Origin: Xylanimonas protaetiae
GTDB taxonomy: Bacteria > Actinomycetota > Actinomycetes > Actinomycetales > Cellulomonadaceae
Direction of reading: 5' to 3'
DNA: 64,000 nt
Assembly (NCBI RefSeq): GCF_004135385.1
Contig: NZ_CP035493.1
Span: 1,488,001 to 1,552,000 of the forward strand
Positions 26,639 to 27,934 of the stretch are shown one piece after another. The position numbers and the translations under genes are program-made. The number at the start of each line of letters is the position of its first letter. The stretch's first letter is position 1. The notes beneath the pieces are model-generated. The model saw only the letters and a program-made list of their open reading frames with translations, was not told the origin of the DNA and made no database searches.

Positions 26639-26644
26639 TAGAAT
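26639..26644 (+). promoter_or_regulatory. -10 box of the corA transcript
   Basis: TAGAAT lies 47 bases before the mini-ORF and about 165 bases before corA. It predicts an mRNA leader of about 160 bases. A good -35 box was not seen. Confidence 0.45.
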
Positions 26645-26690
26645 GACCCGCGGCCCGCCAAGGGGCCCGGGACGAAGGAGGTGGCACGCC

Positions 26691-26729
26691 ATGCGCAGCG
26701 AGCCCCCCAGTAGTCCCAGCCGCGGCTGA
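26691..26729 (+). CDS. Candidate Mg2+-sensing leader peptide of corA (12 aa)
   Basis: Twelve codons (MRSEPPSSPSRG) behind a perfect ribosome site AAGGAGG (26675-26681), with 9 bases to the ATG; this is one of the strongest ribosome sites in the window. The peptide has Glu-Pro-Pro and a further Pro. In Salmonella, the proline- and acid-containing leader peptide MgtL and the CorL leader of corA couple translation to Mg2+ level. Same gene context here, unrelated sequence. Function is inferred. Confidence 0.5.
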   Translation: MRSEPPSSPSRG

Positions 26730-26755
26730 CGCCCGGCATCCGCGCTCCCCAGAAT

Positions 26756-26788
26756 CGCCTGAGGCACGACTCGTCGTGCCCGCAGGCG
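26756..26788 (+). promoter_or_regulatory. Leader hairpin just upstream of the corA ribosome site
   Basis: GGCACGA (26763-26769) pairs with TCGTGCC (26774-26780) around a CTCG loop, extended by CGCCTG/CAGGCG (26756-26761 with 26783-26788). It lies between the leader peptide and corA's GCGGAGG ribosome site and may be the switch element. Confidence 0.5.
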
Positions 26789-26809
26789 CGCGCCCCCGCG
26801 GAGGTTCCC

Positions 26810-27934
26810 TTGGCTACGACCCTGCCCACCCGTACGACCCGCCCCGGCCTGGCCGGCGTGCTGCGCCCGCGCCGCCGCCCCGACGGCACCGCCCGCGTCG
26901 TCGACGCGGCGCCCGCGCGCCGCAACGCCCTCGTCACGTCGGCGATCTACGACGGCGGCGTGCGCACCTCGTCGCACGCCACGCTCGGCGAGACGTTCCG
27001 TGCCCTGCGCTCGCGCCCCGGCGGCCAGCGAGGCGAGCTCGCGTGGATCGGCCTCGAGCGGCCCGACCCGCGCGAGCTCGCCTCGCTGGCCGCCGAGTTC
27101 GACCTGCACGCCCTCGCCGTCGAGGACGCCATCCAGGCCCACCAGCGCCCCAAGCTGGAGCGCTACGGCGACACGCTCTTCGTCGTGCTGCACGCGGCCC
27201 GGTACGACGACGCCGCCGAGGAGGTCGAGTTCTCCGAGCTGCACGTCTTCGTCGGCCCCGACTTCGTCGTGACCGTGCGCCACGGCGCCTCGCCCGACCT
27301 GTCGGCGGTGCGCCGCCGCATGGAGGCCGACCCGGCGATGCTCGCGCGCGGCCCCGAGGCGGTGCTGTACGCGATCCTCGACGCCGTCGTCGACGGGTAC
27401 GCCCCCGTCGTCGCGGGCCTGGAGAACGACATCGACGAGATCGAGTCCCAGGTGTTCGCCATGGGCGCCGAGGCGTCGCGGCGCATCTACGAGCTCTCGC
27501 GCGAGGTCGCCGACTTCCAGCGGGCCGTGCGCCCGCTGCGACAGGTGCTGCACGCGCTCACGCAGGGCTTCACCAAGTACAAGGTCGACGAGGAGCAGCA
27601 GGCCCACCTGCGCGACGTCGCCGACCACCTCACGGAGGTGGCCGAGCGCGTCGAGACCCACCGCGGCGCCCTGCGCGACATCCTCACCGTGAACGCGACG
27701 CTCGTCGCCCAGCGGCAGAACGAGGAGGCCAAGGCGCAGAACGACGAGATCAAGAAGATCTCCTCCTGGGCCGCCATCCTGTTCGCCCCGACCGTCGTGG
27801 GCGGCATCTACGGCATGAACTTCGACGTCATGCCCGAGCTGCACTGGGCGTTCGGGTACCCGTTCGCGCTCGGGCTGATGGTCGCGGTCAGCGTCGTGCT
27901 GTGGGGCGTGTTCCGGCTCCGCCGCTGGATCTGA
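26810..27934 (+). CDS. corA: CorA-family magnesium/cobalt transporter
   Basis: A 374-residue channel subunit. The large N-terminal cytoplasmic domain contains LAVEDAIQAHQRPKLERYGDTLFVVLHAARY and a long helix (about 215-330). Two C-terminal membrane segments follow, with the selectivity motif YGMNF between them. A pentamer carries Mg2+ (or Co2+) inward. The start is TTG 26810 behind GCGGAGG; the GTG/ATG choices downstream would cut the conserved fold. A leader with a mini-ORF and a hairpin precedes it. Confidence 0.92.
   Translation: MATTLPTRTTRPGLAGVLRPRRRPDGTARVVDAAPARRNALVTSAIYDGGVRTSSHATLGETFRALRSRPGGQRGELAWIGLERPDPRELASLAAEFDLHALAVEDAIQAHQRPKLERYGDTLFVVLHAARYDDAAEEVEFSELHVFVGPDFVVTVRHGASPDLSAVRRRMEADPAMLARGPEAVLYAILDAVVDGYAPVVAGLENDIDEIESQVFAMGAEASRRIYELSREVADFQRAVRPLRQVLHALTQGFTKYKVDEEQQAHLRDVADHLTEVAERVETHRGALRDILTVNATLVAQRQNEEAKAQNDEIKKISSWAAILFAPTVVGGIYGMNFDVMPELHWAFGYPFALGLMVAVSVVLWGVFRLRRWI

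Follow-up and report, generated by a model that had tools for sequence, protein, structure and literature searches.

Conservation of a predicted leader peptide gene upstream of corA in Xylanimonas protaetiae and of related leader ORFs before other magnesium transporter genes

The corA leader and its elements

The window analysed here, a stretch of 64,000 nucleotides from Xylanimonas protaetiae (contig NZ_CP035493.1), harbors on the forward strand a gene for the Mg2+ transporter CorA, which starts with TTG at position 26810 and extends to 27934 (374 aa; Pfam PF01544, E=3.6e-65). It is preceded by a Shine-Dalgarno (SD) sequence, GGAGG, at 26800-26804. Further upstream lies a leader ORF (uORF) of 12 codons, MRSEPPSSPSRG, from ATG to TGA at 26691-26729, with its own SD AAGGAGG at 26675-26681, and SD-like sites are also present in relatives. 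The codons GAG CCC CCC AGT AGT (E-P-P-S-S) at 26700-26714 form its conserved core. Between uORF and corA SD, a C-rich spacer (26730-26799) contains a 33-nt hairpin, CGCCTGAGGCACGACTCGTCGTGCCCGCAGGCG, at 26756-26788. The original prediction of a 12-codon ORF with a perfect SD, followed by a 33-base hairpin just ahead of the corA ribosome site, was confirmed in all its elements. The uORF is not a chance occurrence: an ORF preceded by an SD and encoding [D/E]PP in codons 2-10 is found once on both strands of the window, at this position. A second CorA gene of the same genome (56% identity) has no such uORF.

The predicted stretch begins at 26639, the first base of a -10-like TAGAAT (26639-26644), which is inferred to be a promoter element. 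A -10-like hexamer is located 15-120 nt upstream of the uORF in 43 of 56 corA leaders of the family (4.7% of mononucleotide shuffles; median -67), but the set of hexamers was chosen after the leaders had been seen, and a sigma-70 scan found no promoter. Secondary structure predictions gave a mixed picture. The 33-nt hairpin folds better than shuffled sequences (-21.8 kcal/mol, z=-2.36, 4 of 200 shuffles as good), whereas the whole leader is not exceptional (z=-1.58, 14 of 200 shuffles as good). The sequence of the hairpin is not conserved. Each of five relatives folded shows some GC-rich hairpin of unrelated sequence near that place, without comparison to shuffles, and a consensus fold of seven leaders yielded only weak pairing there. 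The hairpin has no terminator-like U tract, and an intrinsic terminator after the uORF was not detected in the window.

A further hairpin is predicted at 26669-26717, in which GGGAC (26669-26673) pairs with GUCCC (26713-26717) and GG.GG of the uORF SD with the Pro-Pro codons, leaving AGUA (26709-26712) unpaired. Over 48 distinct leaders of the family, the mean probability of pairing between the SD and its own codons is 0.92, compared to 0.53 in synonymous recodings, and it exceeds 95% of the recodings in 20 of 48. The window leader itself does not stand out (0.78 versus 0.73), and the total MFE is not lower (mean z -0.26).

The spacer following the uORF was examined for base composition. C-over-G skew is +0.19 for 26730-26809. 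In the 110 nt after the uORF stop, mean skew in the family is +0.177, above 0 in 55 of 56 leaders, including one genome of the same genus, G006, in which it was measured inside corA because of a shifted reading frame. The corresponding values are +0.025 upstream of leaderless corA genes (8 of 15 above 0) and +0.032 upstream of 32 ORFs of the window. Rho-loading regions are C-rich as well, and the spacer is a candidate for such a region by inference from composition alone.

Conservation of the leader ORF before corA and other Mg2+ transporter genes

A DNA search with the leader hit 12 of 39 genomes, including that of the window. Most hits cover only the SD-uORF block, and one is unrelated. A protein search with CorA in 221 genomes of the family gave 84 hits with E<=1e-100, of which 73 were examined. 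Of 57 hits with E<=2.4e-136, 56 could be evaluated, and all 56 have an SD-preceded uORF with E-P-P, Glu being at position 4 or 5, which starts 119-380 nt before the CorA alignment. In G006, the C run consists of five instead of six residues and the frame departs after Pro-Pro, which could indicate a sequencing error or a true loss. Of 16 hits with E from 5.9e-130 to 9e-103, 15 could be evaluated and none has the uORF. The remaining 11 hits, all in the distant group, were not fetched. Including G006, 26 distinct peptides were found, ranging from MRSEPPSSPSRG and MTRSEPPSSPNRS to MSGEPPSSSPRPEP, MRSEPPHHMD and MSGEPPSRMP. Left out before counting were, here and in the searches described below, rows at a contig edge (G178) or with flanks of 13 nt (L099) and 72 nt (L294), L132, which was not re-examined, and L275 and L284, which were not read for uORFs.

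Outside the family, 40 CorA upstream regions of the order were fetched and 39 inspected. Two have a clear leader of this kind, MSSEPPSRP and MTGDPVSHR, four from Microbacteriaceae are candidates, and the rest show none. Of 30 Microbacteriaceae CorA loci, one has a candidate, and this locus belongs to the same genome as one of the four. The Microbacterium corA leaders L128, L130, L134 and L137 contain AGT or NAT-AGT codons but no Pro core and are kept as candidates only, and two further pattern matches in that family are unrelated.

Codon usage was compared over 55 loci, without G006. The Glu codon is GAG in 43 and GAA in 12, the first Pro codon CCT in 39 and CCC in 16, and the second Pro codon CCC in 34, CCG in 15 and CCT in 6. 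The next codon is AGT in 54 and CAT in one, and the following one AGT in 49 and different in 6. In 32 composition-selected ORFs of the window, AGT represents 2 of 776 Ser codons, and of 901 Pro codons 32 are CCT and 514 CCG. Thus, the peptide is kept with synonymous change at Glu and Pro, while Ser is fixed at one rare codon and the first Pro is always CCY. The CCY bias fits pairing of the SD with these codons. In Acidimicrobiia, however, the SD does not pair with the core; in several MFE folds it pairs, as judged by eye, with a CCUYC-like stretch further down the ORF. AGT persists in these leaders, and its fixation is therefore not explained by that helix.

To determine if the leader is restricted to corA, a collection of 84,980 species was scanned for a pattern of SD, start and GCGARCCNCCNAGTAGT. 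The scan revealed 49 stretches. Since the pattern demanded AGTAGT, it says nothing about codon choice. In 41 cases, a CorA match follows on the same strand, 120-353 nt from the motif to the alignment, in Promicromonospora, Isoptericola, Myceligenerans, Krasilnikoviella, Xylanimonas, Xylanimicrobium, Puerhibacterium, some Cellulomonas, Actinotalea, a Promicromonosporaceae MAG and three Klenkia species. Five more, in three Acidimicrobiia-type MAGs, Amycolatopsis acididurans and an Actinomycetes MAG, stand before a gene of the MgtE_N/CBS type followed by an Nramp gene or, at locus L205, before an Nramp gene alone. Pfam searches were run on the MgtE_N/CBS protein of locus L202, in an Acidimicrobiia MAG, and on the Nramps of L202, L205 and L206. 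The two Nramps compared with solved structures, those of L202 and L205, match the Mg2+ transporter EleNRMT (7qia; 1.7e-98 and 4.2e-47) far better than any other entry (next best 1.5e-16 for MntH and 2.6e-16 for 10ky; best MntH for the second 1.7e-12), and are therefore similar to Mg2+-type Nramps (NRMT). Three loci, L203, L207 and L218, apparently are chance matches, the first and last judged by frame only.

The MgtE_N/CBS protein of L206 was then used for searches ignoring the motif, although the query itself came from a motif hit. In 296 genomes of the phylum, four had hits at E<=1e-60, and all four have an SD-preceded uORF: MPAGDIPHSP, MTGDIPHSP, MKSGEPPST and MPASEPPST. In 119 genomes of the class that includes the Acidimicrobiia MAG of L202, 12 hits have E<=7.8e-129. 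Two of them, L239 and L240, are also in the previous set, and one, L290, is the locus L202 of the pattern scan. Of 11 that could be evaluated, 10 have [D/E]-P-P-S, with Ser as AGT in 10 of 10. L292 lacks the leader, L294 is located at a contig end, and three weak hits (E about 1e-51 to 1e-55) also lack it. A further class of 24 genomes added nothing new.

NRMT homologues were found in 66 of 246 genomes of the phylum. Of 19 regions fetched upstream of NRMT operons, six carry an M-box (RF00380). Eleven of the other 13, upstream of more distant MgtE_N-NRMT operons, were read, and none has the [D/E]PPS leader: five have a Pro-His-Ser(AGT) uORF, five another leader with an intrinsic terminator, and one neither. 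Of 20 further regions, three have an M-box. A scan for acidic-Pro uORFs within 600 nt of 30 NRMT genes found none convincing, because most have an MgtE_N gene in between. In the window leader, no Rfam family including RF00380 reached its gathering score. In the family of the window, the M-box occurs in 4 of 101 genomes. In three of these, all of a genus designated g13, it precedes an NRMT gene whose product is 65-69% identical to that of L205, which has the SEPPSS uORF instead. Between M-box and NRMT gene in g13 lies a related uORF, M[NK]E[GS]HSPRLLL, with CAT AGT. One of the three genomes also has a SEPPS uORF before corA. Of five NRMT regions from genomes designated f22, two have an M-box followed by MSPGDSPYP or MSPSDSPYP with the SD AGGAGGTGAGG, which resembles the SD of Acidimicrobiia leaders.

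A possible Mg2+-linked control of corA

From these analyses it appears very probable, on comparison alone, that the uORF is part of a magnesium-linked switch and belongs to an actinobacterial family of leader ORFs whose downstream genes are Mg2+ uptake genes. What the comparisons establish is a strong SD and a short ORF with an acidic residue within the first six codons, usually Pro-Pro, and then a Ser encoded by AGU, kept before corA, before MgtE_N/CBS genes (next to NRMT where checked) and before one NRMT gene alone. Translation of the ORF is inferred from codon-level conservation, and ribosome stalling, the response to Mg2+, its sign and the sensing step are likewise inferred. In the model favoured here, at adequate Mg2+ the ribosome would pass the acidic-Pro-Pro-Ser(AGU) stretch and the leader RNA would settle in a form that lets Rho terminate or hides the corA start. 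At low Mg2+, the ribosome would pause or drop off, with an acidic-proline chain at the tunnel entrance and a weak G-U wobble codon in the A site, the alternative form would arise and corA would be expressed. Since the uORF SD is predicted to pair with its own Pro codons in many corA leaders, initiation may also be tuned. A probability of about 0.6 is assigned to this reading as a whole. A regulatory, translated leader is very likely, and Mg2+ as the signal likely, given the gene context and the exchange with a Mg2+ riboswitch. Rho as the output is only slightly more likely than not, and destabilisation of the ribosome by acidic-Pro residues as the sensing step remains tentative.

The interpretation offered by the original prediction, a convergent Mg2+ switch following the logic by which proline- and acid-containing leader peptides act on mgtA, mgtC and corA in Salmonella through ribosome stalling, is partly supported. 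Lack of conservation in relatives, which had been named beforehand as refuting it, was not observed: the peptide core, the acidic residue and the prolines are kept with synonymous change, and the same kind of leader stands before other Mg2+ transporter genes. This supports an Mg2+-linked leader peptide with MgtL-like acidic-Pro composition and no shared sequence. It is, however, not an isolated convergent case, since similar leaders occur in several lineages of the phylum. Several observations do not fit easily. Acidic-Pro-Pro is not universal: GDIPHSP (two of the MgtE_N/CBS loci), EGHSP/ESHSP (the g13 uORFs) and GDSPYP (the f22 uORFs) lack Pro-Pro. Moreover, destabilisation of the MgtL type predicts selection on amino acids, not on one Ser codon.

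Other explanations were considered. The RNA rather than the peptide could sense Mg2+: the hairpin at 26669-26717 would open at low Mg2+, the uORF would be translated and its ribosomes would keep Rho off, so that uORF translation promotes corA. This is the kind of logic reported for the mycobacterial M-box and uORF2, where the M-box acts on uORF2 translation (PMC12810186), and uORF translation may thus favour rather than reduce transporter expression. The SD pairing across 48 leaders, the first Pro codon, which is never the commonest CCG, and the C-rich spacer are in line with it. However, the helix is missing in Acidimicrobiia while the peptide core is kept, and the 80-nt spacer is only partly covered by a uORF ribosome. 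This opposite coupling is considered unlikely, though not excluded, and the window leader alone shows no excess SD pairing.

Less likely still, the leader could answer translation state, for example the supply of EF-P or Ser-tRNA(GCU), through slow Pro-Pro and AGU codons, Mg2+ uptake being one output. Pro-Pro needs EF-P, and AGT is rare in the window ORFs yet almost fixed in the core, but 46 of 49 loci of the pattern scan precede Mg2+ transporter genes, and a Mg2+ riboswitch replaces or accompanies the uORF at orthologous genes. That the peptide is a small functional protein, for example a transporter modulator, as was suggested among other roles for Rv1805A (PMC12810186), is improbable. The core is conserved across lineages, but the peptides are very short (10 to about 33 residues) with an unconserved C-terminal part, the partners come from unrelated transporter families, and the constraint is at codon level. 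A chance ORF kept by descent in a young clade is strongly disfavoured. Most corA cases indeed come from related genera, but synonymous changes, the presence in Klenkia, Amycolatopsis and Acidimicrobiia, in the last two before other Mg2+ genes, and the motif-blind recovery argue against it.

Peptide-based Mg2+ control is worked out in enterobacteria, and M-box-linked uORFs are already described in mycobacteria. A leader-peptide family that crosses classes and three unrelated transporter types, and trades places with the M-box, would be an independent case for the ribosome as a Mg2+ sensor. It would also suggest a role for the conserved mycobacterial M-box uORFs, whose function is reported as unclear (PMC12810186), and the fixed AGU codon gives a handle on how translation reads Mg2+. 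A more far-reaching view, possible but rather doubtful on present evidence, is that Actinomycetota use a riboswitch-free, translation-based Mg2+ sensor, a nascent [D/E]-(P-P)-[S/H]-Ser peptide whose Ser must be read from the wobble codon AGU, so that the ribosome itself would measure Mg2+ at one codon. This module would be swapped with, or stacked behind, the M-box at orthologous transporter genes and would drive corA, MgtE_N/CBS and NRMT genes alike.

Comparison with described leaders and discarded readings

The closest described relatives are probably the M-box-linked uORFs of mycobacteria, uORF2/Rv1805A, Rv1535A and Rv0115A (PMC12810186), and the uORFs before mgtC and, with an M-box, mgtE in M. 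abscessus, the latter called a vcgB homologue (PMC4974804). They share a short ORF with a strong SD in a Mg2+-linked leader, ribosome-protected in M. abscessus. In M. tuberculosis, a translational M-box, uORF2 and Rho termination are reported. Among the openly licensed papers searched, only these two were found on Mg2+ leader ORFs of actinobacteria, and none on a corA leader peptide there (other literature: PMC8806188, PMC8092293, PMC7897499, PMC10272879, PMC11611912, Chadani 2017, Gall 2016, Kriner and Groisman 2015). uORF2 is reported to have a conserved N-terminus with Pro at position 7. The f22 uORFs also have Pro at position 7, with Asp-Ser(AGT)-Pro, but that they belong to the mycobacterial family is an inference. 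The window peptide has Pro at positions 5, 6 and 9, E-P-P-S-S instead of D-S-P, no M-box and a position before corA, and the peptide of PMC12810186 is called specific for mycobacteria. Five related leader peptides gave no NCBIfam and no meaningful Pfam match, the window peptide (12 aa) being too short for such a search.

MgtL of Salmonella and E. coli, the leader of mgtA, is likewise a short leader ORF of a Mg2+ transporter gene with acidic and Pro residues at its start, and acts by ribosome drop-off at low Mg2+ and Rho (PMC11282234, PMC11552253). No shared sequence was seen by eye between its EPDP and SEPPSS, AGU is fixed in the leaders described here, and the transporter is of another type. 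CorL of the same species is a uORF within a stem-loop ahead of corA, has a single Pro in its conserved N-terminus, and is reported to be inverse to corA and to involve Rho (PMC11552253). Removal of its start codon is reported to raise corA. The M-box, or ykoK riboswitch, is a structured aptamer, which is absent from the window but stands before orthologous NRMT genes and before MgtE_N-NRMT operons of other lineages. The arrest peptides ApcA and ApdA (PMC10951233) are also Pro-based regulatory uORFs of actinomycetes, but neither their R-A-P-P/G motif nor their location upstream of yidC2 or secDF applies to the window leader. An amino-acid attenuator is not indicated either, since the downstream gene encodes a CorA transporter.

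Programmed frameshifting at CCC CCC was rejected as a general feature, since the core is often CCT CCG or CCT CCC and only G006 has an altered C run. A conserved out-of-frame stop in AGTAGT was also rejected, being absent in leaders with AGT CGT, AGT CCC and AGT ACC. A universal GGAC/GAA...AGUA/GUCC internal-loop RNA motif fits, as judged by eye, several Xylanimonas-type and Promicromonospora leaders, but not those of Isoptericola or Acidimicrobiia. When SD and uORF were aligned, the spacing between start and core stayed unaligned. Matches to the core pattern with one mismatch in 297 genomes of the order were uninformative: of 30 matches, the eight exact ones all precede corA, but only one of 22 with a mismatch does, and the backwards control pattern gave about 60 matches.

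Leader types upstream of NRMT operons

Among the NRMT operons without a detected M-box, seven (loci L278, L279, L280, L282, L289, L322, and L324) have another short leader ORF, which ends in Pro-His-Ser(AGT)-x-stop (MKPRPHSR, MKPKPRPHSS, MKVRKSKPHSM and similar). In L278-L280, this ORF follows a tRNA gene. Five NRMT operons (L277, L281, L285, L286, and L287) share a leader with similar sequence around GACCAGATG...AGTGA, followed by a hairpin and 6-8 U before the MgtE_N gene. Rfam searches of these leaders revealed no match pointing to a riboswitch up to E=5, and they could possibly represent an undescribed Mg2+-linked RNA. 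In five further loci, L304, L305, L306, L310, and L311, M-box aptamers are followed by a uORF with Ser AGT. The protein encoded next to NRMT in locus L202 (L202:3158-4486) matches MgtE_N and CBS in Pfam, but no membrane domain, suggesting a cytoplasmic partner that may sense Mg2+.

Leader ORFs upstream of corA

Some corA genes of Microbacteriaceae (L128, L130, L134, and L137, genera g45 and g52) have candidate leader ORFs of 20-21 codons with GAT/CAT AGT (MSSDSRR, MSSHSRR, MSGDSYD, MADHST), but a Pro core is absent. In genome G006 (loci L006/L017), the C run in the uORF core is one base shorter than in relatives, which could indicate a sequencing error or frame loss, and the shifted frame ends at the ATGA of the corA start.
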